Shown piece after piece: positions 17,429-64,000 of a stretch of DNA of 64,000 nucleotides. The DNA comes from Owenia fusiformis (taxonomy: Eukaryota; Annelida; Polychaeta; Sabellida; Oweniidae), in contig CAIIXF020000002.1 in NCBI GenBank assembly GCA_903813345.2, positions 2,458,001 through 2,522,000 of the forward strand. Reading direction: 5' to 3'. The position numbers and the translations under genes are program-made. The notes beneath the pieces are model-generated. The model ran no database searches. It saw nothing but the letters and a program-made list of their open reading frames with translations, and was not told where the DNA came from. Position 1 is the stretch's first letter; each line of letters starts with the position of its first letter.

Positions 17429-17592
17429 TTTAAGGATATAAGCCCTGGACTCGGTGCAATGTGGAACCATTCCTCAAAGGTGTTGCTTTAGAAAATCTGC
17501 ACAAGATGCTTGCATCGAGTGTTAATTTTAAGAAACAATGCCTGAAAGGAATGGTCATTCCACAATGCATTAAGTCTTGGGCTTAAATTCTT
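17429..17592. mobile_element. M1 inverted-repeat element
   Basis: Left end TTTAAGGATATAAGCCCTGG, right end the imperfect complement ending near 17592. Its right end is the point from which segmental duplication copies 1 and 2 match. Confidence 0.6.
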
Positions 17593-18267
17593 TTCACACA
17601 TTTCATGTATGAAGGTAAAACCTCCCGCTGTCACCCAAAAGTAACCCGGCCATGTGACTTCCTACATGTAGCTTGCATTCCAATATCCATACTTTACTGA
17701 TGAGTCAATCCGCCATATTAAATAGCAGCCCACATTCCCTTTGCCCAATCCGCCAAATTAAATAGCCCAAAATTTACAATAGTTCATTTCACCATTTTTT
17801 AAACTTTTGAACAAATGCGTTGTCTAAGGAAGGCAAACAATGGTACCTGTTACACTACCGGGTTTAATTGTTTAGTTACGAGGCATTTTGACAATAAAAA
17901 CTTCGTAACCAATGATTTTGTGCCTGTGTAACACCTGAACATCCTTTGCTACGAAGCAATTTATCAACATGCTTCATTATGAAGCAATTAAACATGATGT
18001 GTAACTCTATATAGCTAGGCAAGGTGTGTCCGATTCAAGCCAATCTGAACACAGTATTTCACATATAGAACAGTGTGTGAAATATAAATAACACATGCAA
18101 GGTCACTAGTTAAACAGTTGTCATGGCGTCGGCGATGAATGGGCTTTTCACATTGAATTTGATGACTTGGCAACTTGACCTTTGCAAAACATTTCATTGA
18201 AAATGTGTTATTTTAGTGATTTCGTTCCTTTTGGATGATTTTGTAGAAAAACTTGCAATGTGTAAAA

Positions 18268-18432
18268 ATAATTTAAACCCAAGACTCAATGCATTGTAGC
18301 TGCTTCATTCCACTCAGGTGTTGTTTCCTAAACTTTGCATTCCTGCTGGGCGGTCATGCAAAGGTTTGGAAACAAAACCTTCATGGTATGATTCAGCAAA
18401 CAATGCACTGAGTCCAGGGCTTAAATCCTTAA
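18268..18432. mobile_element. M1 inverted-repeat element
   Basis: Left AATTTAAACCCAAGACTCAATG, with a complementary right end (CACTGAGTCCAGGGCTTAAAT). It lies in the intron between the two 3' exons of the minus-strand gene. The paralogous copy is at 41132-41300. Confidence 0.6.
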
Positions 18433-18462
18433 ACCAATGCCTTCAGGGGATATGACTATTAC

Positions 18463-18534
18463 CTCATTTACTTCTGTCTTGTGTGGATTTATATAATTTG
18501 GATCTCTTTCTACAAGCTGCAATTCTTGAGCTAC
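18463..18534 (-). CDS. Internal exon of unrecognised membrane-protein gene
   Basis: A 72-bp exon bounded by CTATTTTCCAG on its 5' side and GTAATAG on its 3' side, both good splice sites, phase 0 to phase 0. It encodes VAQELQLVERDPNYINPHKT followed by EVNE. The paralog at 41332-41403 keeps length, sites and frame with three amino-acid changes, which supports a real exon. It would follow the membrane exon at 23180-23500 and precede the lysine-rich terminal exon. LINE A inserted 26 bp upstream of the acceptor. Confidence 0.6.
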
Positions 18535-18706
18535 CTGGAAAATAGATGTTTTTCACATTTTTTTTTATATTTATTTATTTATTCATTTATATAATATAAC
18601 AGTACAATATAGTCCTGCGGCTGGGCTTAAAGCATTATTAGCCACATCTAGAATACTTATATAAAGGGGTAAAAAATAAAAATTGTAAGCCTAAATGGTA
18701 AAAGGC

Positions 18707-19579
18707 TTAAACTGCCTGGGGTCTTTCGAAACACTGTCTGATAAACAGAGCACTGGATGCAAGTATTTCATGGTTCTTACTAAGAGAAAGAGATGGGTGA
18801 CCAAAGAGAAATAAGTCAAGTTTATCTTGTCTATTTTTGCATAAATGCCTGTAGTTCGGAAGTAAATCAAAAAGCTTCTGTTCAAAGCTTATGTAGAATG
18901 GTTGTCGAATAGGACAAGAAAATATTACATGTTTTGTTGTTTCACTTTTGTCACCACATATACATTCAGGTGAGTTTACATTGACAAAGTTATGGGCATG
19001 AAGGTGAGCATTTAATATGAGGTCAACTCTTATTCTATTCAAATATATCTCGTCAGCCCTATTAATGCCCAACTCTGATGCCAATATAATATCATTATTT
19101 AAGAACAATTGACTAATATTATTCTTAAAAGTCTTGATTGTATCACAGTTTCTAATCTTGGAGCTCAATCCGTTGAACTCAGTCATACACAAGAAGGTGG
19201 GAGATCTAGAGCGTATTCTTGAGCGACGTAGTGGAACTTGAAAAGGTATTACATTACGAATATCTCTGATATTTGGTTTTTTGTATTTGTCAAAAATTGT
19301 TGAAACATAATGAGGTACATTTCCACATTGCACTTTGAACATAAATGTAAGTCTATGTATCTTTCTACGAATCTCCAACGTTGGCCAATTCAATACATGG
19401 AACAGTTTAGTAGACGAGGTTCCAGCAATTGTACCTGCACATATTGTTGCAGCTTTATAATAAAGCCTATCTAGACTCTTCAGAGTTGTTAGGTTTGCAC
19501 ATCCGTACAAAATATCATATAAATCAAAATGAGGCAGAATATAAGAGTTGAACATAAGCTTCAGATGTTTACCACCCAA
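18707..19579 (-). pseudogene. LINE A ORF2, C-terminal part
   Basis: About 290 codons downstream of the RT. They cover the thumb/connection region and a zinc-knuckle-like CICGDKSETTKHVIFSCP block, then a C-terminal tail. A frameshift separates it from the RT segment, which overlaps its start by 19 bp. Confidence 0.85.
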
Positions 19580-20322
19580 TTTCTTGATATACTTTTCAAG
19601 TGGTTTAGCAACTTATCAATTTTATTAGCTGATTCGATAATATGTGGTTCAAAGGTAAGCTGGCTATCAAAAACTAAACCAAGATGCTTGTGCATATTTA
19701 CCTTTGGAATAATGTCACCACCCAAAGACAAAGAAGGAGTAAGCAATTCTGCTTTCCTAGGGTCAAAGAAATTTAACTCAGCACTTTTACTCGCTTTGAA
19801 CTTTAATTTCCATTTGTCAGACCAATTGTAAATTGCATCTAGATCATTTTGTAATTCAGTCATCTTTATATCTATATCACCAGCTTGAAATGGCTGGTAG
19901 ATGGACGTATCGTCCGCATAGAGATAACATCTAGAGTCAATATGGTCAGTTATGTCATTGATATAGATAAGAAAAAGAAGAGGGCCTAATATTGATCCTT
20001 GGGGAACTCCAGAGTTGATGTAACTTTCTTTTGACCATTCAGAACTTTGGCCATCGATGACAGCTTTGACCCTGCGATTAGTTAAGTATGATCTCAACAA
20101 AGAGCATACATCAGGACCGAAGCCATAACTAGGAAGTTTATTCAAAAGAAGGTTATGAGGAATTGTGTCAAACGCGGCCGAGATGTCCAAAAATGCCGCT
20201 TTTACATTAAATCCTGCATCTAAATGCTCAGTCAAGTAATCAATTATTGTCAGTAACTGAAATTGAGTACTGTGGCCAGGTAAAAACCCACTTTGTAGAT
20301 TATATAATAAATTCTGATCCAC
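19561..20322 (-). pseudogene. LINE A ORF2, reverse transcriptase core
   Basis: RT fingers and palm with FLDISAAFDTIPHN, SGVPQGSILGPLLFLIYIND, catalytic YADDTS and a KHLGLVFDS block. RNA-templated DNA synthesis at a nicked target is the family's function. It is out of frame with the upstream segment, so this copy is dead. Confidence 0.9.
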
Positions 20323-20378
20323 AAGAAATTTAAAAACCTTATTAAATAAGATTCTCTCAGTAACTTTTGAAAGACAGC

Positions 20379-21137
20379 TTAAAAGTGTAATTGGCCTATA
20401 ATTTGATGGAGTATTTTTGTCACTTTTCTTATGAATGGGAACAATGTTACCAAGTTTCCAGCATTGAGGGAAACAGTTTGTTGCAAAAATCTTGTTGATA
20501 AGTTTAGATAATGGTTGAGAGAGAGAGCGGGGGCTGCCAGTTTTAGCATTTTATTACTAATTTGGTCTGGTCCAGAGGCCTTATTTACATTTAAATTCAC
20601 CAACGTTTCGAAAACTTCATTGTTATTTGTTGACAGCATGTTGATTGACTCATTTGTACAAAGATGTAAAAAAGCATTATCAACAGGCCCTTCAAAATGA
20701 AAACTTTTAATAAAATGATTCAGGAAAATATTGGCTTTATCTTTGCCTGACCTGACAGTATTACCCAGATCGTCAACAAGAATAGGTATTGAACTAGATC
20801 GACTGTTTGAAAATAATTTAGATGTGATGTTCCAGTAAGATTTTGAACCAAAATGTTGTGTTTCCATTTTACTAATTATCCGCTTTTCATGTTCGAGTTT
20901 CGCTTGAGTAATGGCATTATCTACAATTGTGCACTGGGCAAGATATCTATCAAATTGTTCAGGTTTGTTAGAATGGCGAAATGCATAGTGACATTTGTTC
21001 CTTTTGTTGATTAATGTTCTGATTTTGTCAGTAAACCATGGCTTGTCATTTGATTTTACTCTTATTTGTTTATTTGGAATGCAAGAACAAAAAATATCGA
21101 ATAATGAACTGGTGAACTCTTTCCCAATGTTGTTCAA
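20379..21137 (-). pseudogene. LINE A ORF2, region between endonuclease and RT
   Basis: 252 codons including KPWFTDKIRTLINKRNK, the basic linker before the RT, and NKASGPDQISNKMLKL, the start of RT. A frameshift near 20380 breaks it from the core. The insertion truncates it upstream of residue 1, near 21268. Confidence 0.85.
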
Positions 21138-21677
21138 GTCATTTGAGTCTTCAATTATATTACAAAGTCGCGAGTGACGAATTGAGTTATTCAGAGTGGA
21201 AACATTAACATTGTCGTATTTCCATACCCTACGTAGAAAAGATGGATTTTTTGTAATCCCAATAAGGATTCACATTTACGAGGGGCATTTGAAAAGTTCC
21301 TTTCTTTTTGCTCTAAAAATATGAGGAATGATCAGAACAAGACAAAACTTTTAGAATGTATAGTTCGACTATTTATGATTAAGCTGTGAGAATTATAGCG
21401 TGTAATATATTATAGCCACAGTTAAACATCCGTTTGAAATATACTTGTCTCGATACCGCGGAGCAGTTTGAATATGGATACTTTTAAGTCACAATCAATG
21501 TATCCAACCATAATGTGCAGTCCATGGACCTATCTTATCTTTGCCACAACATTAAGCCAGTGGGCCTAAGCCAGGGCTCTATATCTCCTTCGAAGTATTC
21601 TCTCCCAAATATAATTCACTTTCTAAACCTCCGTATCCAATCCATATAGGCATTTTCCTGTGCAATTATTGCCTTCA

Positions 21678-22091
21678 CTAAAATAATCCATAATTAAAAT
21701 ATTTGCCACTTATTTTCAGCTTTATCCAAACGTTTCCAAGAATGTCATTCATAAGATCATGAATTATTTCAGATTCAATTGAGTTATGAACATAAATAAT
21801 TAATCCACGGTTTTTATTAGTATAATAGAGGATTTGAAAATCATTGAAAATCAAGGAGTTTTCCACATCATTTTTTGTGAGATTTCCCACTTCGCAGAGA
21901 CCAATTACTTTTATGTCATGTTGCTTAACCCTAAATTTAAGGGCTTCAAATCTTGATAAGTAATTTGCTTTAAGACTATTTATGTTAGAAAATAGGATAG
22001 GTAACTCATTTATAGTGTTTTCAATATGCGGTCCGGGATTTGATTCAATATCCCCGCTGAGTTTCAGTATAAATGTGCAATCAACTAGGTA
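21678..22091 (-). pseudogene. LINE 5' fragment: 2A-like peptide and endonuclease start (copy 1)
   Basis: Encodes LVDCTFILKLSGDIESNPGP, then about 110 residues that look like the first half of an APE-type endonuclease (LFSNINSLKANY, VIGLCEV with the catalytic-type Glu, and RGLIIYVHNSIE). GDIESNPGP fits the 2A/StopGo consensus D-x-E-x-N-P-G-P known from the N-termini of several invertebrate LINEs. The palindromic mariner element interrupts it at 22091; the first residues continue at 23118-23152. It stops at 21678 after KYFNYGLF and the rest is missing. Confidence 0.75.
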
Positions 22092-23117
22092 CAGGGTGAC
22101 CGGAAAAAAAGGAGACCATTGAAATAGGCAATATCTCCTAAAATAGTGACCATTGAAGTAATCAATTTCTCCTAAACTAGACAAGTGACATCAATGAAAT
22201 TTTGCATACATCAGAACAGTTCTATGGAAATTTGTTCCTGAAAGTGTCAATACAAGCAGTCAACTGGTTCAGGAGCTATGATCATTTACATAACATGCTC
22301 CAAATAGGCGCAATTGAGACCAACGCAGAGCTGGATACATTTGGCAAATACCCTTACATATTCCGACCTTGTTATGGCATTACATTTAGCATTTATTGCC
22401 ACCTTTAGGTCAGCAATTGTCTCAGGATTGTTTTGGTACACATTGTCTTTCAAATTGCCCCACAAAAAGAAATCAGGTGGATTCAAATTTGAGGTGTATG
22501 GAGACGAAGCTTATCTGACCTATGGCTTCTGACTCAGTGGTCCCACTCAGTTACAGTATCATCCTAAGGAGGTTTTGGGCAGCCCTTGGTTTTCATATGG
22601 GATTTAATTGTGCCATATAGTGGTTTTAGTAACATGGCACTATGCCCAATACCTAAAGTGACTCTTAAGATTTGGTAAATCAGCACTTAAGCAACAGGAT
22701 GATGAACCACATGTCAGATAACCCTTCATTGCCATTACAGCCTAGACTTGAATCCTGCTGATTTCTTTTTGTATGGATATTTGAAAGACAATCTATACCA
22801 AAACAATCCTCAGACTATTGTTGACCTAAAGAAGGCAATCACTGCTATATGTAATGCCATAATAATGCCATAGAGGGCAGAACATGTAAGGGTAGTTTGC
22901 CATATGAATCCAACTCTGCGTTGGTCTCAATTGTGCCTATTTGGAGCATGTCATGTAAATGATCATAGCTCCTGAACCAGTTGAATGCTTGTATTGAAAC
23001 CTTCAGTAACAAATTTCCATATAACTGTTCCAGTGTATGCAAAATTTCATTGATGGCACTTGTCTAGTTTAGGAGAAATTGATTACTTCAATGGTCTCCT
23101 TTTTTCCGGTCACCCTG
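22092..23117. mobile_element. Palindromic mariner-like element with two transposase 3' ends
   Basis: A 1026-bp insertion with TIRs CAGGGTGACCGGAAAAAA, flanked by TA (22090-22091, 23118-23119). The paralog at 42241 has the single TA empty site. The ~375-390-bp arms (22092-22480 and 22745-23117) are inverted copies of one transposon 3' end, and each encodes a transposase C-terminus. On the minus strand (left) this is NPPDFFLWGNLKDNVYQNNP; on the plus strand (right), from about 22748, NPADFFLYGYLKDNLYQNNP. This is the IS630/Tc1/mariner signature after the last catalytic acidic residue. No catalytic core remains, so it needs help to move. Confidence 0.9.
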
Positions 23118-23179: not shown

Positions 23180-23500
23180 ACTGAAAAGAATATACGATTT
23201 AGTCCAAGATGACCAAGCAATAGCATAAATACAGTATACAAGAAATGGGCCAATAACTGAATGATATAATACACATAGGAGCATAATTTGAAGTTTCCAG
23301 AAACGTTCTGCTTGGATGTTAATTTTCAGTAAAGTGAGAATCAGAATGAAAAAATATATCATAAGAAAGATGAAACCATCATATTTCAGTGCTCTGATGT
23401 TTGATTTCCACTCGTCAGGTTTGCTATCATTTCTTAAATACACTTTATATACATTGAATAAGCCAATGATAGCCCTCCATGTGACTTGTTCACTTGGCAT
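23180..23500 (-). CDS. Unrecognised multi-pass membrane protein, first coding exon
   Basis: The ATG at 23498-23500 follows an in-frame stop (TGA) a few codons upstream. 107 codons run to ...YILFS and the donor GTGAGATT (23171-23178), phase 0. The product starts MPSEQVTWRAIIGLFNVYKV and has at least two hydrophobic stretches: DGFIFLMIYFFILILTLLKI at residues 42-61 and, near 72-95, LQIMLLCVLYHSVIGPFLVY. Without splicing the frame stays open through the mariner insertion. Joining to 18463-18534 and 16849-16962 would give about 168 residues with a lysine-rich cytosolic tail. Exon linkage is inferred from phase and collinear duplication. I do not recognise the family. The start lies divergently 1.1 kb from the transporter start. 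Confidence 0.5.
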
Positions 23501-23971
23501 TAACCCTCACCTTTCCTCAGTGATCTCCAAAGGCAATCAACTAGACCCAACCAAACAATAAAAGGAATAGCACACAATTTAAGAGCAGGAGCTGGGCAAA
23601 GTTAAAACCAGAAAAATGTGACATTTCAATTGAAACAATTTTAAAAAATGCAAAGAACAAGTACAGTATTTAATACATGAAGCACATGCTTATAAGCATC
23701 AAGTAGCTTTGATATATAATTATTTACAATTGAATTCATAACTCTAAATGGAACTCAACAGTAAAAGGAAAACAGCTTGTTATCAGGTTTGTCAATCAAA
23801 ACTGTAACTGTGTCAGGTAATATGAATGTGTGGCACTGAATACACCAGGCGACCTTAAATTAATCAGCAAACTATATATACTATCTATTTAATGTTCGTT
23901 ATGCTTCTTAGTCAAACAGAAAAGTGAGCGTTACCACTGGTGATTCGCTCGATTACGCTGGTTACCACATG

Positions 23972-24420
23972 GTCTCAAAATGTCGGAACGTCGAAGGTAC
24001 GATTTTTCTTTTTTTCCTTATTTCACGAGTCGTAGGCAGAATCCCCACGACATCTTTTCTCACAAACGTGTATCAGTATCATATGTTTTAGAAAATGTAC
24101 ATGATTGCGAAAAAATAGCTCAGAAGACAACAGAATCGTCTATATAATTCCTCACTTAAGTTACACAAACGTAGGGGTTAAAAGTGCAGATCTTAACTGT
24201 TTTTCGAAATACCGTTTATGTAACTTAAGTGAGGAATTAAATCGACGATTCCGATGTCTTCTGAACTATTTGTTCGAATTTGCAAATGTGTACATTTTCT
24301 TAAACATATGATACTGATACACGTGTGTGATAAAAATGGCGTGGGAATTCTGCCTACAACGTGTGAAAAAAGAAAAATCGTACCTTCGACGTTCCGACAT
24401 TTTGTTACCGAAACGGTTTG
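23972..24420. repeat. Long hairpin element H, copy 1
   Basis: Arms of ~210-230 bp fold around a short loop near 24165-24215. Outer blocks are AAAATGTCGGAACGTCGAAG with the complement at 24380-24405; inner blocks are CCTCACTTAAGTTAC and its complement. Copies 2 and 3 are at 43107 and 52405. Short ORFs inside are arm sequence, not genes. Confidence 0.85.
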
Positions 24421-25346: not shown

Positions 25347-27229
25347 GTAAATATAGTTTATTGAAGTATTTTTTTCAAATTGACTTCGTTAAATTTTTTT
25401 TGATGCGTTCATTTGTGTACCTCGAGGTTCGGAGGTTGATTTCGTGGATGTTCAGCTTTAGATCATAAAACATTGTCATATCAGACTTTTAAAAAATTAG
25501 TTTATTCGTTTATTATGTTAATAGGGAGTTTAAGCTTGCATATAAAATCGAAACGCCAACCTATACGTATGACCAATCGCTCACACAAATGCATCGCTTA
25601 AATATTTTCCGTTCACCTTTAGGCTATGAAAAACATTGCAAGCTCATCTCCCTTTTATTTAGAATTTTTGACTTCCCTGAACCACTTTCTGAGCTAACAC
25701 ATGATGTTATTTCTATCCGATATTTTTTAACCAATCGTACAATTCTTTTCAACATAAACTAAATTAGCATGCATGCTATCTATTAGTGTGAATTATTACT
25801 TATTGATAACAATGTATTACAACTAACCCCCCTATCACACCAAACTAGTTCTTACCCGTTCTTGTCAGTCCTACGAAAACGTCGTAAAACGGGCTCAATC
25901 TGGCTGTGGTCGGGAAATATGTCTAAAATAATTAGCTACTTCGTTCATAAATAGTCTTCAATACGTCCATCTCATTCGCATTTCGTTCAATCGCATCACG
26001 TCGGTGTGCAACGTCGTATAACGCGTCCCTTAGTCTAGAAGGTCATCATGACCTGATAAAAGAACGGTATAGTCGCCATCGAATTTTGAATCAATTCAAA
26101 ATTCTAAATCACATTCCCCGTCCGGGAAAGTCCATGAATTTCGTAAACAGACCGTAGAACGTTGTAGGTACGTTCATTCAGTTCGCACACAGTTTAAAAC
26201 CGATTCGGCAACGTTTTGACGATCACCAGAAAATTTTGAGCATGCTCTAAGTTTTGGAGGACCTACTCGTTCGAGTAGTTTCATGAAGTTTGTAAACAGA
26301 TCCTAAACGGTTCTTAGTGGGTTCTTTGTACGTCAAATCCGTTAGTGCACGGTTTAAGCCCGTTTTCGAGAACATAGTGAGAACTAGTTTGGTGTGATAG
26401 TAGGGTAAAAGATTATTTGAAATGAGTTCACAATTTTTAACTTTTTGAAATTGAAATAAAAGTTTCATATATCACATTTTGATAACATTGGGTAATACTG
26501 CAACATTATCCTACATAGGCGTAGCCAGGGGCGGGGTGCCCCCTCATATCAATAAAAATAAAACCATGAGAAAGAAGAAGAAAAGAGCTTGAAAATGATC
26601 AATTCTTGTAAAATTAAAATTAAACTTATTTTTGGCTTGTTTATGCCACAATCGCACCCCTCCGGCTGAAAACCGAAATAATTTTGGTGATCGCACCCCC
26701 CCCCACTGACTGAAAGCTGGCTACGCCCCTGTCCTATGTGGTTTAATCTTTACCTAGGGCTTTTAAATTATTTTAAAACTTACTAATGAAACAAAGGGTG
26801 CGTCCAGTATGTCAAAACTAAAATGCAACAAATAGAAGGAATTACATTTGTTTTACATCATTTGATACCCTCTGCTATGGGATCATTTGAGCTTCTCCCC
26901 CCCCCCCTCTCTGGTCAACATAAGTCTATTGACGCTAGAGTCAAAAATTAAAAAGGCAAAAAAACATCGAATTACAAACTCATTTAGGACAGAGGTATTC
27001 CATCGGCAACATATTGCACTTTTTTATTGCAAAGCAAAACTGCATATTTCGAATTCTTTGATATAGACTTTAGTATTGAAGTATGTGAGTTGCATACTTT
27101 ATTAATTATTATTGAAAAATGTTAACATTTTCATGAAACATTTCCCCGGATATTGTTGTGACATGTTACTATGGCAACCGTTACTCTACATGTGCTTCGT
27201 TTTTTAAACTTTACTGTTTTAACTGCAAT
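25347..27229 (+). other. Transporter copy 1, intron 1, 5' part
   Basis: Matches copy 3 at 59815-60605 and 62249-63087. From 26075 it also matches copy 2 at 43946-45033. No exon is evident. It contains the small MITE at 26511-26745 and a poly-C run near 26900. Confidence 0.75.
26511..26745. mobile_element. MITE with CGTAGCCAGGGGC ends
   Basis: The left end CATAGGCGTAGCCAGGGGC is inverted against GCTGGCTACGCCCCTGTCCTATG at the right. Copy 2 (44388-44535) carries an internally deleted version and copy 3 (about 62455-62600) only the right part. The element therefore predates the duplications. Confidence 0.7.
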
Positions 27230-27820
27230 TTATTTATTTATTCAGAAAAAATGTATATACAATAATAATACATGACTAATACTGACACCAAATGGCATAT
27301 AAAAGTATAATGTCAAGTATCAAAAAAAGTATCACTAGCAAATATAAAAAAAAAAAATATATATATAGTCTAACTAGTTAACAAGGGTATATAGGTATAT
27401 GCGTTTCATATATACAAGTATTTACATGATATGACATAGTACAATGCATACACTAAGCATGTATGTACGTTGTGTTTAAATGATTTGCCATGACTATTGT
27501 AATATACAATGCGTGGATAGTAAATAAAAATGTTTAATAAGACAGATTTTTTATAAGTAGCTTGACAAGAGGTCAGATTTGTAGGCCTTTTTAAAGGAGA
27601 TTATAGATTTTGACATTTTTGTGGAATGTTAAAGAGAATTCCATAGTGAAGGCCCATTTCGTTTTATGAAAAATTTGTTCGCATGTTCAATATATATATA
27701 TATATATTTTTTCATGTTCAGTATGGAAGTTGTCACATTGGCGGGTATTATAACTATGTGTATCGCAGTTTATTTGGAAATTTGTATCGAGTAGAGAATT
27801 TAGTATTTGGTCACCATCTT

Positions 27821-28550
27821 TTACTTGGTACATGAAATTGCTGTATACAGCTTATCTATATCATAAATATTCAGAAGATTAAGTTCTTTGAATAATTGAG
27901 CTGTATGATCAACGTATTTTTTTCCAAAAACAATGCGAACAAATCGTTTTTGAATCATGTAAATTTTATCAAGATAAGATTTGTAGTTGTTACCCCAAAT
28001 AATATTGCAGTAATTGAGTTGAGAGTGAATAAGAGAGTAGTATATACTATAAGCAAAGCACTTTTTGTTAAAAAAATATGGACTCCATACAAGACCCCAA
28101 TGCATCTTTTTTTCTTAGTTTTTGATATGCTCTTTGAAAGTTAAATTGGCATCAATAGCTATTCCTAAGAAAGATATAGTGATGTCTTGCTTGAGTTTGA
28201 TGTCATTTATTTTGAGAAAGTGATTGTTAGAAGTTTTACCTGGTCCAAAGAGAATCCATTTAGTTTTGTCAATGTTTAAAGAAAGTTTATTGGCAATGAT
28301 CCAGTCACTGAGCTTTGAAAGTTCTTCATTTGCGGTGACAAATAGAGTGGGTAAATCTTTGTGAGAGGCCAAGAGATTGGTATCATCAGCAAATAGGATG
28401 AATTCAAAGAAATCAGATTTGTAGATGTCATTTATGTAAAGAAGAAATAAAATAGGACCAAGCACTGAACCTTGAGGGACACCATGAGATAATGAGGTTT
28501 GTTTCGATTTACAGCCATTAGAAATAACAGTCTGATGATGTTGAGTTAAG
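27821..28550 (-). pseudogene. LINE B RT, second half and C-terminus
   Basis: Contains GVPQGSVLGPILFLLYINDI and the catalytic variant FADDTN, then the SLNIDKTKWILFG and ISFLGIAIDANLTFKEH blocks. A frameshift near 28110 leads to SLIHSQLNYCNIIWGNNYKS and onward. The first half of RT lies across LINE C at 32161-32358. Inactive. Confidence 0.85.
28514..28550. repeat. Unusually long (37-bp) target-site duplication of LINE C, left copy
   Basis: GCCATTAGAAATAACAGTCT and 17 further bases are repeated at 32124-32160 with a single mismatch, immediately outside both ends of LINE C. Confidence 0.88.
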
Positions 28551-28873
28551 TTTTAGTTTAGTTTAATAATAGTTTATTTCTGTGTCACAGGTTTACTAAA
28601 ATATTACAAGTAAAATACATGTATTAAAAAACCCAACAGCCGACATCGGCTTACGAGACACCATATAAATATACAAAATAGTCAATAGAAAAATATAGCA
28701 TCTGTATGTCGAATAATATCACAGAGGATGTAGATTAAGTTTGCAGAGTGTGAACAATTCACAGACAAAATGACTAGAGTTAAATAACATACAATATAAA
28801 CATGTGATTTCAAAATGCAATAAATGAGAATACAGTAATTATGACTGGTTGATAATATTGCACATATTTAATA

Positions 28874-29435
28874 TCACAAACGTTCCAGGTTAAATAAACG
28901 TTTTGAGAACATTTTGTAAAGAGTAGCAGCAAGGCAGCTTTGAATGTTCTTTGCATGTAGTAATGGGATCATAATTAAGGTTGGATTGGCACTTGAAGTA
29001 TTTAAATAAGGTACTTTAACTTTGGCTTCCTGATACAACATGTCTCTTAATTCTGTATAATGTGAACATTTAACAAGAAAATGTAATTCATCTTCAACTT
29101 CATTTGAGTCACACAGTTTACACTTCCTTTCCAATAGAGGTGTGTTATTATACCTTTGTCTCTCAACATTAAGTTGAAGGGACCCAGTTCTAAAGCTAGC
29201 TAGAATTTTCCTTTGATGTCTTGGCATGTAAATGTTATTATAATGTTCAGTTACTACTCCGTACTTGAACTGTCTATATGTCCTCAGTTTATTACCATTG
29301 ACTAGGTTATGTTGATCATTCCAAATATTTGTAAGAAATGGATCAGTTTGTTGAAAATAATCACTAATTTTTTCATGAAGGGTTTACATGGGGTTTGTGT
29401 CCCTAAATGTTGTTCAAGGCATGCTAGTTGTATTA
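28874..29435 (-). pseudogene. LINE C ORF2, C-terminal part after the MITE
   Basis: Continues the ORF beyond the MITE: QHI is followed by QLACLEQHL when the MITE is ignored. It ends with a zinc-finger-like CKLCDSNEVEDELHFLVKC block and a short tail (NIQSCLAATLYKMFSKRLF). The C-x2-C...H-x4-C spacing is common at LINE C-termini. Confidence 0.8.
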
Positions 29436-29939
29436 CTGTACGCCCGGTATTATTCGCGAGATTTAATTTCGCGAATTTTGCGAAAACACGATTTCGCGGC
29501 TATTAAATTTCGCGAATTTCACTTACTTGTACTAGTAATTGGAACTTAGACACTAGTAGATGTCATTTACGTTCATCATTTCACAGCAGTCCCTACCCAT
29601 AATGCACTACTAGTATATTTAACAAGCCACCGAAATCATTTACTCAGACAGAGGGAAACGTCATCAATTGGCCACGAAAATCAAATGAGACCTGGCATTG
29701 TTGGTAGTAGTTGGCCTGACTAGCCAACGTAAAATAGACATGTTGGTGGAAATCATCCAATTATCGCCCAATAACACTAGACGAAACGTTTTATACAAAA
29801 CGAAATGCATCATAGCCCCGGGTAAAAACAAATTCCCGGGGATTTAATTGGCAATTTCGCGACGATAATTTTTCGCGATTTTAACACCCTCGCGAAAAGC
29901 GCGAAACTAAATCGCACGCGAATAATACCGGGCGTACAG
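29436..29939. mobile_element. MITE inserted in LINE C
   Basis: 504 bp with TIRs CTGTACGCCCGGTATTATTC at both ends, flanked by TA (29434-29435, 29940-29941). The ends are rich in TTCGCG blocks. Its insertion truncates the LINE ORF, which then reads a few spurious residues into the MITE. Confidence 0.85.
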
Positions 29940-29941
29940 TA

Positions 29942-32123
29942 TGTGCTGTGTTCTGGAATCCCAGCTTGAGCGTCTTTTTAGAGACCATTTGTAGATCTTA
30001 TGGTTCAATCTGTTGGGGTTCATGTTTCTGAGTCTAATAAGGTGGCGTACACATTCAATTTTCTGTTTATCTTTTGCTTGTGTCCAGCCTAAATCCCCTC
30101 TTACTGCTTCATTGCTGGTCTTTGCTCCAACACCCAGGAAAAATTTTCCAGCTCTATTTTGCACTTTGTTAATACAGCTATGTTCTGACAGCCCAACAAT
30201 TGAGCATCCATAGTTAATAATAGGCTGAACCATGGTGTCATACAATTTGTTATACACTGAGAGATCCATGCCACCTAACTGTTTATACTTAGAGATTATA
30301 ACTCCAAGGGCACGATTTGCTGACTTGGCTATTTCTTTTGCAGTTTTATTGTAATTGATATGTTCATCTAACCATATACCAAGGTATTTATAGGTGCTGG
30401 CATATGATAATTCCATGTTGCCACAGTTGAATTGATGATTACTACGGGGTTTTGAAGGTGGGCGATAATGTACAATTTTGGACTTTCTCTGGTTGATTTT
30501 CATTCTCCACTTCCTGCACCATGTATTTACAGTGTCAATCATTCTCTGAAGGTCTTCTGCAGAGCTGGCTATGAGGGCTATATCGTCAGCATATAAAAGT
30601 ATTGAGACATTTGTGTTGTCTATATTTATCCCACAGTTCAATTGTTTTACTTCTGCGGCTAGGTCATTCACATAGATTGCAAATATTGTCGGAGATAACA
30701 GACAGCCTTCCTTCGAACCCTTGCTGATGGTAAACCAGGGTGTTAAATATCCATTGACACGAATGGCTCCAGATACATCCTGATATAATGATTTAGTTGC
30801 ATTGAATATTTTGCCCTTGACTCCAATGCGGTTTAATTTTAGCCACATACAATCACGATTTAGACCACTAAAAGCTTTCGTTGCGTCGACATAACAAACA
30901 AATGTCTCGAGTTTAGCCAACTTACGATTATTAACTATTGAGTGGAGGCTGTGGGCATGATCTAAACAGCTGCGCTTTTCACGAAATCCATTTTGCTCAT
31001 CAACCAATAAGTTGTTGCTCTCAAGGAACTTTGTAAGGCGCTTGTTAAGAATATCACAGTATATTTTACATGGCACTGAGATTAGGCTGATTGCTCTGTA
31101 GTTAAGTGGGTCACGGTTGTCGCCATCCTTGAAAATTGGATTAATTATGGTCTGCATCCACTTTTGGGGGACAATTCCACTATCAAAGCATTCTATGATA
31201 ATTTTATACAACATATTTATACAGGTTGGGTTTTTCAATACTTCTGCTGGGATTGAGTCAATGCCCACGGCTTTGCGAATTTTGGCTCGATGAACTGCAT
31301 TAATGACTTCCTGTAGGGTTATGTCCTCATTAAGTGGTGCACTTAGTGGGTCAACATTATCATTTTCAATATGGGAGAGTTCTTCCTTGACTTGTTTCAA
31401 GTGATTCTCATCAAAGTTGACATTGTCCTCTTTTTCTGAATATAATTTATTGTATGAGTTGGCCCAATAATTTAAGACTTCTTGTTTTTCTGTTGATACA
31501 GTTTTGTCTGGTTTTAAAATTTCCCAAGGAACTTCCTGTTTTCGGTCTGAGGCGATACCAATTTTTCCAATTTTATCCCAAAAGTTCCTAGAATTTGGTT
31601 CAATATATATATCCAATAGATGTTGTTGTTCTTGTTTCTGGAATTGTCGCTTTATTCTGCGATGGATTCTGTCAAAGGTTCGTCGTTCTATCTTGTAAAG
31701 TTCTTTCAAGTTACGTTTTTGGGTGGATTTACATTTCAGCCAGGCAGATTCAGATGCAGACACTTTATTCCATTGTGTTTGTAGTTCATCACACCAGTAT
31801 GGCTTTCTGAATGACTTAGGTTTTTTAGCAGTGGCCTTCACTGTGACTGGTTGGAACACTTTACTCATTTCATTGTCAATAGCTGAGACAAACTCATTGT
31901 ACATACAATTGATACGCTCAGTGGTATTAGTTGTTCTTGAGATACGATCTAAAGTTTTATTAATTTGTGTTATTAGGTTATTATCTAACATAAAGTTATC
32001 GGGCACCTTGTTTATCCTATATTTTTTGTGTTTTAAGTTATCTTCAGTTGGGCATTGTTCTTCATTTGGTGAATACCATTCATAGTCCAAAGGAAGAATT
32101 AAATCACAGCTCAGGATACAATG
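29942..32123 (-). pseudogene. LINE C ORF2: pre-RT region and reverse transcriptase
   Basis: About 725 codons open without stops. Order: remnant of the endonuclease end; basic linker (KPYWCDELQTQW, RIHRRIKRQF); RT start RKAVGIDSIPAEVLKN; DEQNGFREKRSCLDHAHSLH; YVDATKAFSGLN; KGSKEGCLLSPTIFAIYVND; catalytic LLYADDIALIA; KYLGIWLDE; and IINYGCSIVGLSEHS. The upstream end is fused in frame to LINE B residues (MRGVTLSLFQSYLTQRHQTV), so an ORF caller reports a 762-residue chimera. The clade is uncertain; the RT is unlike LINE A or B. Confidence 0.88.
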
Positions 32124-32358
32124 GCCATTAGAAATAACAGTCTGATGACGTTGAGTTAAGTAACTTTGAAACAATGAAAGGGTAACACCACGCATTCCGT
32201 AGTGTGAGAGTTTATCTAATAATATATTATGATCAATAGTGTCAAATGCTTTTGAGAAGTCTAATGATATCCCTAGTGAAGGAATTTTGCTTTCATTTGC
32301 ACATCTTATCTTTTCAATAAAAGTTAGAAGTGGAATGTATGTAGACTTTTTCTTCTCA

Positions 32359-32574: not shown

Positions 32575-32594
32575 TGCAATACTTAAATACAGTA

Positions 32595-33381: not shown

Positions 33382-33611
33382 ACAATATATACTCCTAAAA
33401 GTAAGAGTTCAACATTTGCAGGCTTTTATATGCTTTCAAATGTATACTTTCGATTGCCAAACATTTGTATTATAAATATAGCGCAAGTTCCATCTTGCTT
33501 AGTTTCCATCAAAGACAAGGGAAATGGTTCCAAATGTTTTGGCCTCTTTCTTAAAGCATATGCAAATTTATGAAAATTGTGACCCATATTGTATCTTGTT
33601 TAATATTCCAG

Positions 33612-51374: not shown

Positions 51375-52235
51375 TTTTTGATAATTATTTTGAATGATGC
51401 GTGATTTGAACACGCTAACATATACTTTTTGTTATTAAATTCAGCACACATAAACTAGAGACAATTTCCAACTTTGGATTTTTTTGTTTTTTATTTTACT
51501 TTAATAACAATAAAATACAAGCGACTGATCAAGGGTGTCATTAATGCGTTTAAACCAATTTGACGTCATAAATCAAAATTAAGAATCGCTGATTTTATTT
51601 ACTAATCACTTATTTGTACAATAACCCATTGTCAAAATCGGCCTTTATGGTATTTTTGAATAGTCTATCTGTAGTCTGTCTATAAATAGGACAGGTCCAT
51701 CAACAAGGTCTTATGTTAGAAATGTTAAACTTGCCCTAGATATCTAGTTGTCCAGTTGTTGTCATGGTTGTCATCATAAATATATGCATTGAAGCAATGT
51801 AGCAATTTAGTAAAACATTGGCCACTCTGTAGTATTTTGAAATTGAGCCAGGCCACGGGTAAAGGGGTCTTATCACAGATTTTTTAAATATTCTGATTTT
51901 TTGTTTATTTTAGAAAGCACAAAGAGACCTTTCAAATGAGCCCTGGCTTATGTCTTAACTATTTTTCCTTGCATATAGACCAGAAAGTCGGATTTGAATT
52001 TAGCACATTTTCCTCTTAATCTTGGGCACATTTTTGGCTCTGTATTACAATTCTAATTTTTGTGATAAGACCGGTTTTCCTATGGCCAGGCTCAATAACT
52101 GCCATTTAATAAGCATTATCAAACATATGGGTCAATAAAAATTTCCAATGTTGGAAATCATCTCTAGTTAATGTGTCCTAATTCTAATAACAAAAAATAG
52201 CACAGGGTGAGCTATCTATTCAAATAACGAGTCAA
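51375..52235. mobile_element. Inverted-repeat element of ~860 bp
   Basis: The left arm, about 51375-51480 (TTTTTGTTATTAAATTCAG, AACTAGAGACAATTTCCAAC), is complementary to about 52120-52235. Arms are diverged, the interior is non-coding and limits are approximate. Confidence 0.55.
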
Positions 52236-52267
52236 AGATACTACCAGAAACCTGTGTGGGGTACTAT

Positions 52268-53198: not shown

Positions 53199-53879
53199 AC
53201 AGGATCTTAAGAGGTTCTGGACAAATCATTTGATTCTGGACTTGTCATATTTTTTTTTCAACGAAATCACATCCAAGGGTTGAATTTTTATTAGCTATTT
53301 AGAGAGTGAGTCCTGCCTAGTATTAATTTCAATAAAAAAAGTTAAAATAGGACCCAATTTGAGAGTCAATCTAATACTTACATAACATTGATAAATTAAG
53401 GCAAATCCTGAAATATTTTTAAAGAGCATTTTTTATGAAATATTATCCAGCAAGTATTTAGATGAAACGGTCTTATTTAAATACAAATCATAACATTATG
53501 ATATTTTTCATGAAACATTTTTCATTTTTAATTTAGGTGAAAACCCTTACATGGTGATGTGTTTTCATAACTTCTTTCATAAAATTCCATCAAGGGGTGA
53601 AGATAAAATGATCGAATTTAAGTGATTTAAGGATCACGAGAATATGTTTTCTTGGATATTTTCTATGAAATCCCATCCAATGGTCAAGGTAAAATTTTGA
53701 TTTTGATTTGGTATTAGGTCACGTGTTCCAAAGATCCATATAAGGCCCATAGAACCATATAGGAACGTCATTTTGAATGTCACGTGATAGATCCATATAA
53801 GGTTTTTAGAACCATGTCGGGAAAGATGAGGGGAAGCCCCTGACACCTGTTTCACGATTTTATCCGAACGTTGTTCGGA

Positions 53880-54300
53880 TCATTTCGGTTTTTATGCACT
53901 TCATTATTGTACCGAAGTTTGCCGATTCGATTCGTCGTATTTCGGAATCCTGGTGACAATTTTATACTCCATTTGGAGTAATTTTGATCTACTTCTTATG
54001 ACGAAAATTCCCGAACCTTGTTCGGATTAATACGGATTTTCTGACCTACTTTATCTTCCGAGATTTCACGAGTTAACATTCGTCTCATTTCGGAATCCTG
54101 GTGACAATTTTATACTCCATTGGAGTATTTTTGATCTACTTCTTATGACGAAAATTCCCGAACCTAATTCGGATTAAACCGGATTTTCTGACCTACCTTA
54201 TCTACCGAGATTTAACGAGTTACATTCGTCTCATTTCGGAATCCTGGTGACAATTTTATACTCCATTGGAGTATTTTTGATCTACTTCTTCTGGATTTTG
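53880..54300. repeat. 147-bp tandem repeats in left foldback arm
   Basis: TTCGGAATCCTGGTGACAAT occurs at 53941, 54089 and 54235 (spacing 148 and 146). The inverted counterpart lies at 58800-59215. Confidence 0.88.
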
Positions 54301-54359
54301 CCCTACTTATTATATCTTGACAACAAGCAAATCAAAAAGTTCGACATGAACGGGTCTCG

Positions 54360-54425
54360 ATCAACTAACCTATAGCGTGGAAGCCAGGCACGCTAACCAT
54401 GATGCCAACGTGCCGCCGATATGAA
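54360..54425 (-). other. tRNA-like segment in foldback arm (left copy)
   Basis: On the minus strand, TGGTTAGCGTG resembles an A box and GATCGAGACC a B box, about 35 nt apart. The right-arm copy is at about 58690-58765 (+). I could not fold a full cloverleaf with a clean anticodon stem, so this is at most a tRNA-derived remnant. Confidence 0.3.
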
Positions 54426-54744
54426 AGAACAAAAGTAATATATATTTATACCGAGCGTCAATTCAAAATGATCCCCACTTTTGACTGCACTTAAATACGA
54501 CTCGTCAGTTGTATCCAGAATAGGTAAACGCCTATGGCGCTAGTGAATAACCAAGTCCCAGGTGAGTGGTTCGTATCCCTCTGTGATATACTATTTTTGT
54601 TTTATTAAATACGACAGAAAGGAGCAAGGTGTAGCTTGAAAACAAGACGTTAGTTTGTTTCAAAACAGTTTGGAAACATTAAACATTAAACATTAATTTA
54701 AGATTTTCCACTCCTGAAGGGGCTCTAGATCTATGAAATTCATT

Positions 54745-54935
54745 AATCCACTCAGTAAAAATACGATTCCTCTGCAACCTGATGTCCAATCAAGATTATT
54801 GAAATATATATGTGTTCCTGACACGTTTGAGCGACCAGGAATAGCAAGGTCTACACAAAGTTTGCACGCGAAATTGACGTAATTCATGACTGAAATTGGG
54901 AAGACAAAATTTGAGATTCACAAACAAAATTGCTT
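54745..54935. repeat. Inner inverted repeat of the 6.5-kb foldback, left arm
   Basis: Complementary to about 55805-55990 (blocks CTCAGTAAAAATACGATT, GTTCCTGACACG, GAAATTGACGTAATTCATGA). It makes a second hairpin of ~190-bp arms around 54936-55804. Confidence 0.75.
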
Positions 54936-58090: not shown

Positions 58091-58799
58091 TTTGTATAAC
58101 GCATTGAAACATCTTTAAAAAGTGAGCAATGTAAGTGTTGTGATAATAACGCCCCTCATACCTATTTATTACAGGTCGTGTAGACCATTGTTGCCTGATT
58201 TATTGCAAAAACATTGACTTTTGCACGTTGATGATGATGATGATGCGCCTTTTATAATAGATCTCAGTGTATATCAATGAAATCCAAAATGTAATATTTA
58301 GTTGATTCCACAGGCTAAAGTATGAAAATGTATAACATATATCTAAAAATTTTACACTGTCTTGATTAATGAATTTCATAGATCTAGAGGCCCTTCAGGA
58401 GTGGAAAATCTTAAATTATCAGAGATTAATGTTTCCAAACTGTTTTGAAACAAACTTACGTCTTGTTTTCAAACTACACTTTGCTCCTTTCTGTCGTATT
58501 TAATAAAACAAAAATAGTATACCACGGAGGGATACGAACCACTCACCTGGGACATGGTTATTCACTAGCGCCTTAGGGGTTCACCTATTCTGGATACAAC
58601 TGACGAGTCGTATTTAAGTGGAGTAAAAAGTGAGGATCATTTTGAATTGACGCTCGGTACAAATATATAATACTTTTGTTCTTTCATATCGGTAGCACGT
58701 TGGCCTCATGGTTAGCGTGCCTGGCTTCCACGCTATAGGTTAGTTGATCGAGACCCGTTCATGTCGAACTTTTTGATATGCTTGTTGTCAAGATATAAT

Positions 58800-59215
58800 A
58801 AGTAGGGCAAAATCCAGAAAAAGTAGATCAAAAATACTCCAATGGAGTATAAAATTGTCACCTGGATTCCGAAATGAGACGAATGTAACTCGTTAAATCT
58901 CGGTAAATAAGGTAGGTCAGAAAATCCGGTTTAATCCGAACTAGGTTCGAGAATTTTCGTCATAAGAAGTAGATCAAAAAAACTCCAATGGAGTATAAAA
59001 TTGTCACCAGGATTCTGAAATGAGACGAATGTTAACTCGTGAAATCTCGGAAGATAAAGTAGGTCAGAAAATCCGGATTAATCCGAACAAGGTTCGGGAA
59101 TTTTCGTCATAAGAAGTAGATCAAAAATACTCCAAATGGAGTATAAAATTGTCACCAGGATTCCGAAATACGACGAATCGAGTCGGCAAACTTCGGTACA
59201 ATAATGAAGTGCATA
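58800..59215. repeat. 147-bp tandem repeats in right foldback arm
   Basis: Inverted counterpart of 53880-54300 with the same unit number. Divergence between arms is low, so the arms were symmetrical when inserted or are kept alike by conversion. Confidence 0.85.
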
Positions 59216-59738
59216 AGAACCGAAATCAAAATCAAAATTTTACCTTGACCATTGGATGGGATTTTATAGAAAATATCCAAGGAAACAAATTCTCGTGATC
59301 CTTAAATCACTTAAATTCGATCATTTTATCTTCACCCCTTGATGGAATTTTATGAAAGAAGTTATGAAAACACATCATCATGTAAGGGTTTTCACCTAAA
59401 TTAAAAATGAAAAATGTTTCATGAAAAATATCATCATGTTTTGATTTGTATTTAAATAAGACCGTTTCGTCTAAATACTTGCTGGATAATATTTCATAAA
59501 AAATGCACTTTTAAAATATTTCAGGATTTGCCTTAATTTATCAATTTAATGTGAGTATTAGATTGACTCTCAAACAGGGTTCTATTTTAACTTTTTTTAT
59601 TGAAATTAATACTAGGCAGGACCCACTCTCTAAATAGCTAATAAAAATTCAACCCTTGGATGTGATTTCGTTGAAAAAAAATATGACAAGTCCAGAATCA
59701 AATGATTTGTCCAGAACCTCTTAAGATCCTGTTGTTGA

Positions 59739-59814: not shown

Positions 59815-60608
59815 GTAAATATAGTTTATTGAAGTATTTTTTCAAATTGACTTCGTTAAATTTTTTTTGATGCGTTCATTGGTGTACCTCGAGGTTCGGA
59901 GGTTGATTTCATGGATGTTCAGATTTAGATCATAAAACATTGTCATATCAGACTTTTAAAAAATTGGTTTATTCGTTTATTATGTTAATAGGGAGTTTAA
60001 GTTGCATATAAAATCGAAACGCCAACCTATACGTATGACCAATCGCTCACACAAATGCATTCCGTTCATGTTTAGGCTATGAAAAACATTGCAAGCTCAT
60101 CTCCCTATTATTTAGAATTTTTGACTTCCCTGAACCACTTTCTGAGCTTACACATGATGTTATTTCTTTCCGATATTTTTGAACCAATCGTACAATTCTT
60201 TTCAACATAAAATAAATTAGCATGCATGCTATCTATTAGTGTGAATTATTACTTATTGATAACAATGTATTACAACTAACCCCCCTATTACACCAAACTA
60301 GTTCTTACCCGTTCTTGCCAGTCCTACGAAAACGTCGTAAAACGGGCTCAATCTGGCTGTGGTCGGGAAATATGTCTAAAATAATTAGCTACTTCGTTCA
60401 TAAACAGTCTTCAATACGTCCATCTCATTCGCAGTTCGTTCAATCGCATCGCGTCGGTGTGCAACGTCGTATAACGCGTCCCTAAGTCTACAGATTACAG
60501 AACGGTATAGTCGCCATCGAATCAATTCAAAATTCTAAATCACGTTCCCCGTCCGGGAAAGTCAATGAATCTCGTAAACAGACCGTAGAACGTTGTAGGT
60601 ACGTTCAT

Positions 60609-62248
60609 ATGGAATTTATTTTGTATCAAAATTGGACATTACATGATGTATGGGAAAAATCGAACTATATGATGCGATACTCGAACTATATGATTCGAAA
60701 CTCGCATCATACTATGCGAAATACGCATCATTATATGCGAAACTCGCATCATCGTATGCCATTTTCAATCCATGTTATACCAACAGTTAATTTTCTTACA
60801 TAACTTATTTTCATTCACACACGCACTGGTTGTATCATGTGTCACACAAAGAGTTGGCACTAACTCCAATCACTTTCCAAAAATCCAAAAGCAATGTTGA
60901 AATGTCACACGGATTGTGTTATAAGTTGCATAGAATACTAAAAGAATTACACATGGATCAAAGTAAATTTCGAACGAACGTGTCAATTTTACACACGCAT
61001 TGAGTTCAAACTCGCATAGGATGGTTCCCACTCGCATAGGCTGTCACAAACAAGTTGCACTTCACATAGGGTGCGATATTTGAAGTCACGTGATATTTAC
61101 ATCCTTGTTTCTACAATATGGCGCCCTCCGTTGAAATGTTATAAAATGTAAATTTTAAATTAAAAATATATAATAGGATACCCTAGGCCCTAGGCTAGGG
61201 AGACGTACAGTGGCCATTTATTGAGAAACTACAAACATCTTCCCAAGTAAAAAAATTCTAATTTAGACTTACTTTAGACCTAGTACCGCTCTAATGCCGC
61301 TCATATCCTTCTAAATTACTGGGCGGAATTGGAACGGTATTAAAATATGTTAGTACCGACTAGCTGGTACTAGAGTTATATATTGCATCGGTGTTAAATC
61401 TGTTAATACCGACTAGTCGGTACTAGAGTTATATTACAGCGGTGTTAACTTATATTTAATCTTGTTGATACAGACTGAGCGGTATAAGAGCGGTATTACG
61501 TTATAAAAAATTAGGACATCTATACTAGATCGGTGTTAAATTGATCAGTATTGGAGCTGTAATAGAGCGGTATTAAATATCCCTGTCCAATACCGATGAA
61601 TCGGTATTTGATCGGTACTTGATCGGTATTGGAGTTTCACTAAAGCCATATTAAATAGCATAGTCCTATACCGGTGCATCGTTATTAGAGCTATTTAATA
61701 TCGGTACTAGGTCGGTATTTGGTCGGTATTTGGTTAAAGCTGATTGGCTGACAGGACTTCTAAATTAGCTCATTTGCATGATAAATTTTAGAAGGATTTC
61801 ATCGGTATTAGTTCGGTATTAGACAACTACATTAGGTCGGTATAAGGTCGGTATAAGGTCGGCATTTAATATGCAACGTCCATTGGATTTTTTCACTTGG
61901 GTTTTTATCTTTTTGCCGCGCTGATGTGTTATTTCGTTTAGTGCAAAATTAACGCAAGATTTAGAACAAAATCTCGAACATCTCTAGAAAGCAATGTTAC
62001 ATCAAGGTGTGTGATCGGCACATCATGGTTTGTGAAGGGAAAAACGTTTGTGCGAGCCGCATAAGCATTTGTTCGACTTGTGTGCCCTGTTTGATGTCAT
62101 GTTTAAACAATGCATACACAAATACGCATGTACAAGTGTGATTTTACAAACATAAAGTGTGCAAACTCGAACAAACCGCGTATGAAATCACACGGATTGT
62201 GTATGCATTCTGCTAAACGCTATTCAATGTGTTAGAGATATCACATAA
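60609..62248. other. 1.6-kb block unique to copy 3: simple repeats and a palindromic satellite
   Basis: Absent from copies 1 and 2. It contains five or six ~20-bp units (CGAAACTCGCATCATTATATG type) at 60655-60765; direct repeats of TCACACGGATTGTGT at about 60903 and 62190; several 'ACTCGCATAGG' motifs near 61010-61070; and the array at 61250-61870. The ORF at 60609-60803 reads through the simple repeats and is not a gene. Confidence 0.65.
61250..61870. repeat. Array of imperfect short palindromes (TACCGACTAGTCGGTA type)
   Basis: GGTATTA / TAGTACCGACTAG-TGGTAC / TAGAGTTATAT blocks recur with ~60-70-bp spacing; GCGGTAT, TCGGTATT or TCGGTACT occurs over twenty times. Repeats are degenerate, with two flanking TTCTAAATTA-type pieces. 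Confidence 0.7.
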
Positions 62249-63087
62249 ATATTAAGTTTAAAACCAGTTTTGACGACCAAGAGAACATTTTGAGCATGTT
62301 AGTTCTAGAGGACCTACCCGTTCGAGTACGTTCGATGAAGTTTGTAAACAGACCCCAAACTGTTCTAAGTACGTCCAGTCCGTTCGTACACAGCTGAAGC
62401 CCGTTTCCGAGAACGTAGTGAGAACTAGTTTGGTGTGATAGTAGGGTTAAAATGATCAATTCTTGTAAAATTCAAAATAAATCTTATTTTTGGCTTGTTT
62501 ATGCCACAATCGCACCCCTCCGGCTGAAAACCGAAATATTTTTGGTGATCGCACCTCCCCCTGACTGAAAGATGGCTACGCCCCTGTCCTATGTGGTTTA
62601 AACTTTACCTAGGGCTTTTAAATGATTTCTATTTTAAAACTTACTAATGTGAACAAAGGGTGCGTCCAGTATGTCAGAACTAAAATGCAACAAATAGAAG
62701 GAATTACATTTGTTTTACATCATTTGATATTCCTACGTACCCTCTGCTATGGGATCATTTGAGCTTCTCACCCACCTCTCTGGTCAACATAAGTCTCTTG
62801 ACGCTAGAGCCAAAAATGAAAAAGGCAAAAAAACATCGAATCACAAACTTATTTAGGACATCGGCAACATGTTGCACTTTTTTATTGCAAAGCAAAACTG
62901 CATATTTCGAATTCTTTGAGATAGACTTTAGTATTGAAGTATGTGAGTTGGATACTTTATTAATTATTATTGAAAAATGTTAACATTTTTATGAAACTTT
63001 TCCCCGGATATTGTTGTGACATGTTACTATAGCAACCGTTACTCTACATGTGCTTCGTTTTTTAAACTTTACTGTTTTAACTGCAAT

Positions 63088-64000
63088 TTAGTTATTTATT
63101 TCTTTAGAAAAAATGTATATACAATAATAATACATGACTAATACTGACACCAAATGGCATATAAAAGTGTAATGTCAAGTATCAAAAAAAGTATCACTAG
63201 AAAAAATATAAAAAAAATATAGTCTAACTAGTTTACAAGGGTATATAGGTATATGAGTTTCATATATACAAGTATTTACATGATATAACATAGTACAATG
63301 CATACACTAAGCATGTATGTACGTTGTGTTTAAATGATGTGTCATGACTATTGTAATATACAATGCGTGGATAGTAAATAAAACTGTTTAATATGGAAGT
63401 TGTCACATTGACGGGTATTATAACTATGTGTATCGCAGTTTATTTGGAATTTGTATCGAGTAGAGAATTTAGTATTTGGTCACCATCTCTTACTTGGTAC
63501 ATGAAAATTGCTGTATTCAGCTTATTTATATCATATATATTCAGAAGATTCAGAAGATCCCAATGTACTGAGAAATATTTTTTTCTAAGTTTTTGATATG
63601 CTCTTTGAAAGTTAAATTGGCATCAATAGCTATTCCTAAGAAAGATATAGTGATGTCTTGCTTGAGTTTGGTGTCATTTATTTTGAGAAAGTGATTGTTA
63701 GACGTTTTACCTGGTCCAAAGAGAATCCATTTAGTTTTGTCAATGTTTAAAGAAAGTTTATTGGCATTGATCCAGTCACTGAGCTTTGAAAGTTCTTCAT
63801 TTGCGGTGTCAAATAGAGTGGGTAAATCTTTGCGAGAGGCCAAGAGATTGGTATCATCAGCAAATAGGATGAATTCAAAGAAATCAGAGGATTTGTAGAT
63901 GTCATTTATGTAAAGAAGAAATAAAATAGGACCAAGCACTGAACCTTGAGGGACACCATGAGATAATGAGGTTTGTTTAAAAATAACAGTCTGATGACGT
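63088..64000 (-). mobile_element. LINE B family copy in transporter copy 3 (runs off right edge)
   Basis: It shares with LINE B the insertion point (CTGCAAT then a TTTA-rich tail) and the 3' sequence, minus deletions of ~180 and ~260 bp. RT fragment 63550-63939 has GVPQGSVLGP, LLYINDIYKSSDFFEFILF and FADDTNLLASRKD. The duplication that separated copies 1 and 3 therefore took place after this LINE inserted. The window stops just before the LINE C target site. Confidence 0.88.

Follow-up and report, generated by a model that had tools for sequence, protein, structure and literature searches.

There is ample precedent for tandem duplication, for the use of retroposon presence and absence as characters, for the ordering of nested elements and for gene conversion between duplicates. 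We analysed a 64-kb stretch of the genome of the annelid Owenia fusiformis (64,000 nucleotides, AT-rich with 35% G+C, called the window below), in which three related segments follow one another; two of them visibly contain a transporter gene of the major facilitator superfamily (MFS), and they carry different transposon insertions. As in the nested-transposon stratigraphy of plants, the position of one long interspersed nuclear element (LINE C) inside another (LINE B) gives a relative order of insertion. Unlike in the plant case, there is no internal clock of the long terminal repeat (LTR) type here, and ages are uncalibrated.

The general literature on gene conversion, transposons and duplication (PMC7419210, PMC9366447, PMC3790853) offers two closer comparisons. 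In the phylogeny of possums based on short interspersed nuclear elements (SINEs), the character is reportedly a shared insertion with target-site duplication (TSD) set against an exact empty site (PMC9366447), and the same kind of character is found here. The difference is that our copies are paralogues of the same genome, so that conversion can shift the character between them, and that a single insertion is informative. In human segmental duplications with interlocus gene conversion, near-identical copies seem to exchange sequence and divergence varies along their length (PMC3790853). The Owenia copies are alike in this, but the step in divergence coincides with a palindromic repeat beside the end of the third copy's homology, and there are three copies and no outgroup. 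The reading that we favour, with a probability of about two in three, is an ordinary tandem duplication of the MFS transporter segment that was later hit by LINEs, miniature inverted-repeat transposable elements (MITEs) and a foldback element, with a mosaic history of four steps set out below.

The three segments were delimited by blastn within this single window. Copy 1 (C1, 17570–35140) is enlarged by insertions, copy 2 (C2) spans 40436–46839, and copy 3 (C3) runs from 52252 to the window end at 64000, where it is cut off inside LINE B. All three lie on the plus strand and are collinear in their unique parts, as the initial annotation of the window had stated. The C1–C3 blocks follow the same order over C1 23808–28504 and C3 52252–63978, and the visible part of C3 is equivalent to about C1 23808–28540 only. 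Collinearity, direct orientation and high identity that extends beyond repeats alone point to a tandem segmental duplication. Kimura two-parameter distances of the blocks are 1.7–4.4% for C1–C2 and 1.8–4.9% for C1–C3, block E2 apart. The initial annotation spoke of a three-copy transporter locus; two transporters are visible, and that of C3 would lie beyond the window end. Its observation largely holds, and its interpretation is supported in part.

To identify empty sites, 15 bp from each side of an insertion were joined to a 30-mer, with one copy of the target site removed, and searched on both strands of all 64 kb with up to 4 mismatches. All five insertions tested have an uninserted counterpart in a sister copy with 0–1 mismatch. 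LINE B (27230–32574, minus strand) is flanked in C1 by the TSD TGCAAT at 27224–27229 and 32575–32580, and its joined flanks match a single place, C2 45023, with 1 mismatch. A deletion from C2 as cause of its absence there is rejected by the 6-bp TSD in C1 together with this match. In C3, LINE B is present from 63088 to the window end. Its 3′ end follows the same base in both copies (27229 in C1, 63087 in C3); the 5′ junction of C3 lies beyond the window end, so the sharing at the same base, as originally described, is seen at the 3′ junction. The shared insertion in C1 and C3 and the exact empty site in C2 do indicate that, at this site, C1 and C3 have a common ancestor that C2 lacks.

The other four insertions are real as well. 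LINE A (18561–21268, minus strand) is 5′-truncated, contains RVT_1 and has a 9-bp TSD, TTCACATTT, at 18552–18560 and 21269–21277 of C1. Its joined flanks have a single match, at C2 41415 with 0 mismatches, and a deletion from C2 is rejected on the grounds of the TSD and this exact match. A palindromic element at C1 22092–23117 has terminal inverted repeats (TIRs) of the sequence CAGGGTGACCGG and a TA target duplication, as is typical of mariner/Tc1 elements; its joined flanks match once, at C2 42229, with 0 mismatches. Pfam found no transposase domain in two peptide fragments tried from this element. Peptides of the form ...NPxDFFL.G.LKD... in both arms presumably resemble mariner, and we call the element mariner-like only. 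A MITE with TIR CACACACCCGGG occupies C1 32596–33381; its TSD is 2 bp or ambiguous, and its joined flanks match once, at C2 45038, with 1 mismatch. The absence of LINE A, the mariner-like element and the MITE from copy 2, claimed from inspection, is thus borne out by the empty sites. The annotated palindromic mariner element is, however, accompanied by a second palindrome, the repeat P, which all three copies carry.

The fifth insertion is a 6.5-kb foldback element in C3 (53199–59732) with arms at 53199–54756 and 58356–59732, TIR ACAGGATCTTAAGAGG and the target duplication TGTTGA, where C1 reads GGTTGA. Its arms pair over 511 bp with 96.7% identity and over 875 bp with 95.3%, and the long inverted arms, the target duplication and the empty site are those of a foldback element. 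The joined flanks match C1 25256 with 1 mismatch and, with 4 mismatches, the element's own right flank at 59724. It was described as present only in copy 3. It is indeed absent from C1, the one copy that allows the comparison, since C2 lacks the stretch around the insertion point. For LINE A and the mariner-like element it is C3 that offers no sequence at the insertion point, and its MITE site would lie beyond the window end. These four insertions are therefore uninformative on branching, and LINE B is the only one of the five that can be scored in C1, C2 and C3 alike.

Divergence within LINE B agrees with a single insertion. Between C1 and C3, its three alignable parts differ at 27 of 871 sites (12/302, 8/168 and 7/401), and the flanks (mini-array and blocks D, E1 and F) at 48 of 1711 (p=0.71), with about C1 27540–27714 and 27884–28103, which C3 lacks or which do not align, left out of the LINE B count and block E2 (24/184) left out of the flank count. 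Alignment of the whole stretch, unalignable places included, gives 38/904. Equal divergence of element and flanks is what one inherited insertion would be expected to show.

Substitutions in the unique parts do not repeat this grouping for the copies as wholes. Over the 1147 sites that can be compared three ways (P after trimming, E1 and F; E2 left out), 18 changes are unique to C1, 28 to C2 and 22 to C3, and one site differs in all three; the excess in C2 is not significant (p=0.20). The corresponding distances are 47 for C1–C2, 41 for C1–C3 and 51 for C2–C3. Without trimming, and with E2 counted in, the totals for C1, C2 and C3 are 24, 45 and 49 over P, E1, E2 and F. An apparent C2-unique excess of 24 in untrimmed P was mostly an alignment edge and fell to 11 after trimming. 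In a simulation under a clock, an internal branch of 1% would be seen with a power of 0.97 and one of 0.5% with a power of 0.54. The two splits were therefore probably close in time, within about 1% under a clock, as judged from these alignments. The claim that copy 2 branched first and copies 1 and 3 later is supported at the LINE B site, and the substitutions leave the order of whole copies unsettled; the pairwise comparison of unique segments that had been proposed as a check neither confirms nor contradicts it.

The copies do not diverge evenly along their length. C1 and C2 differ at 48 of 2481 sites (1.9%) to the left of P and at 63 of 1568 (4.0%) in P, E and F (p=1.0e-4). A change-point scan of C1–C2 places the step at C1 23967. 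For non-coding sites its support interval is 23874–24286, and 0 of 500 block shuffles reach the observed value; for all sites it is 23269–24272 with 1 of 500 shuffles (0 of 500 in the first run on all sites). The right-hand non-coding count of 94/1955 takes in a poorly aligned region next to a gap that precedes exon 1, and we rely on P, E and F instead. Selective constraint as cause of the low divergence on the left was considered and is unlikely, as an old LINE remnant makes up part of the less diverged side; none of four open reading frame stretches from the left of P scored above the Pfam cut-off. Block E2 (C3 62267–62451) shows a further irregularity, with about 13% difference between C3 and C1 (24/184) next to neighbours at about 3%, and it may come from another, unseen copy. 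The step at 23967, the C3-specific block E2 and the synonymous divergence (dS) of exon 1, given below, do not justify a single branching order for whole copies or a calibration without outgroup. The internally calibrated order of events that was read from the insertions is overstated for the same reason, as divergence is uneven and only LINE B is informative. As far as the alignments tell, the copies are mosaic in appearance; they seem to have swapped DNA after duplication and would not be described by any single tree.

The step, which the initial annotation does not include, falls on the palindromic repeat P, located at C1 23967–24414 (left end approximate), at about 52411–52850 in C3, and in truncated form up to 43505 in C2. 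C3 homology starts close by, at C1 23808. In addition, C1 24358–26077 is replaced in C2 by 450 bp, and the missing stretch begins inside P. Since the left end of C3 homology, the C1–C2 step and the start of the C2 deletion all lie within about 600 bp at or beside P, the repeat could be read as a fragile site that steered the history of the locus, with breaks repaired by copying from a neighbouring copy. We regard this role of P as possible but rather doubtful.

The favoured history would begin with the copying of the part from P to the gene into three, near-simultaneously. LINE B would then have inserted into the shared ancestor of C1 and C3, in the brief time that separated the two splits. 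Subsequently some 2.5 kb of the flank left of P would have passed from one to the other of C1 and C2, through gene conversion or through break-induced copying that runs out of shared homology. Such copying would explain both the 1.9% divergence of C1 and C2 to the left of P and the lack of that flank in C3. After this event, C1 would have acquired LINE A and the mariner-like element. LINE C would have followed LINE B, and C3 would have gained the foldback element independently.

Several points weigh against this history. The link between the divergence step and P was drawn post hoc, the third step demands a copying event that could have run in either direction, and the comparison covered the copies of one assembled window. 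Pooled C1–C3 divergence (94/3056 without E2) is not significantly below the 63/1568 between C1 and C2 in P, E and F (p=0.10). Within the gene, dS is 0.157 in exon 1 and 0.034 in the rest (p=0.001), and the within-gene step value is reached by 15 of 500 shuffles; this uneven gene divergence may call for more than one exchange. In block E2, C3 is the odd one out, with C3-unique states at 20 of 28 variable sites.

The model of the initial annotation, in which copy 2 split off whole, copies 1 and 3 separated later, all evolved independently since and the insertions date everything, accounts for LINE B in C1 and C3 and its absence from C2, and C1 and C3 are, without significance, the closest pair (41 differences, against 47 and 51, over 1147 sites). 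Independent evolution is hard to reconcile with a roughly two-fold lower C1–C2 divergence to the left of P (p=1e-4) and with the deviating exon 1 and E2, and at four of the five tested insertions one copy lacks the site within the window; we consider this model unlikely. Sisterhood of C1 and C3 would not be implied if the precursor of C1, C2 and C3 had already carried LINE B and gene conversion had later given C2 the uninserted site from an unoccupied allele or copy. Other tracts of the copies look mosaic, and the gene just to the right of the site is more diverged between C1 and C2 at 48/662 than the rest of the gene at 26/1087, a count of 48 that includes the badly aligned stretch beside the gap. 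Such a conversion needs an unoccupied donor, and none is seen in the window; the adjoining region F has ordinary C1–C2 divergence (23/597). It strikes us as quite unlikely.

A further alternative is an artefact of assembly or haplotypes, with two copies, most likely C1 and C2, being alleles of a highly heterozygous individual placed in series. Haplotypes of very polymorphic animals can differ by about 2–4% and by large insertions, and our judgement is made on the assembled sequence. The window, however, contains zero N bases, the spacers at 35141–40435 and 46840–52251 have no mutual blastn match at E 1e-10, the C1–C2 homology is flanked on both sides by sequence that does not align, and a diploid cannot hold three copies all as alleles. 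We hold the artefact to be improbable, and tandem duplication with later exchange remains the preferred explanation.

The transporter gene has two exons in each visible copy, at 33570–33897 and 34062–35095 in C1 and at 45270–45597 and 45760–46793 in C2 (plus strand), open over 453 codons in both and separated by one short intron of 164 and 162 bp, respectively. The 453-residue protein of C2 matches Pfam MFS_1 with 73.9 bits at a gathering score of 33.4, and the exons of C1 reach 42.8 and 40.2 bits. Between the copies there are 19 synonymous and 24 non-synonymous changes, with a ratio of non-synonymous to synonymous divergence (dN/dS) of 0.375 (p=0.003 for dS against dN). With intact frames and this ratio, both transporters look to be under selection, as far as sequence comparison can indicate. 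The protein may resemble the group of sodium-dependent glucose transporter 1 and MFSD4-like proteins. A PDB search gave one weak match, organic cation/carnitine transporter 2, at E 0.013. Exon 2 had 4 pattern matches in viral contigs, 0 of which were confirmed by tblastn; a query consisting mostly of LINE C had zero pattern matches there.

LINEs A, B and C are non-LTR retrotransposons by their RVT_1 domains, TTTA- or TTTAG-repeat ends on the plus strand and TSDs. LINE C (28552–32123, minus strand, RVT_1) is nested in LINE B and has a 38-bp TSD at 28514–28551 and 32124–32161, the two repeats differing by one mismatch. The sequence of C3 breaks off about 10 bp short of the point where LINE C would show. 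At the 5′ end of LINE B, an inverted-looking segment on the plus strand (32376–32574, left limit approximate) encodes the endonuclease-like peptide TVYILGDFNCDLL, which gives Pfam Exo_endo_phos at E 0.092, below the cut-off. An inverted 5′ end of this kind is expected from twin priming. A further LINE with RVT_1 lies on the minus strand of the spacer between C2 and C3 (48160–49954) and shares 44% identity with LINE C across 213 reverse transcriptase residues. On the minus strand at 21681–22190 and 41833–42600, C1 and C2 have in common an old LINE-like remnant, whose motif GDIESNPGP presumably resembles a 2A self-cleaving peptide. A repeat of about 1.15 kb occurs both in the window's left part (704–1873) and in the C1–C2 spacer (36440–37582), with 96.6% identity. 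ARAGORN with the bacterial code and Rfam at gathering scores gave zero matches in the window.

At P and further to the right, the copies also differ in structure. The 450 bp of C2 (43506–43955, plus strand), in place of 1.7 kb that is present in C1 and largely in C3, look like an insertion coupled to a deletion. They encode a peptide like a LINE 3′ end, related to the C-terminal part of LINE A (E 8e-6 in a comparison with four sequences); Pfam gave no match to it. To the right of P lies an array of 63-bp repeats (21 codons, plus strand), open in frame, with about 9.8 copies in C1 (24622–25241) and 3.7 in C3 (52939–53169) and no indels; it is deleted in C2, and in C3 the foldback follows shortly after it. 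In C1 the reading frame is open across 244 residues with a hydrophobic segment at its end, and to judge from this frame the array may be a coding repeat exon. The peptide after the array was considered as a first transporter helix, a candidate dropped as Pfam gave no match. C3 has no equivalent of about C1 26411–26591, and it has a stretch of its own with several tandem repeats (60609–62257, right limit approximate), followed by block E2. The initial annotation lists neither of these two differences of C3, nor the replacement in C2.

We see in this locus a small case study of how much, and how little, shared transposons reveal about gene duplicates. A single clean insertion yields an order of branching for its own site, and steps in divergence suggest other histories for neighbouring stretches. 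If breaks did recur at P, palindromic repeats could be tested directly here as origins of copying between genes in tandem.

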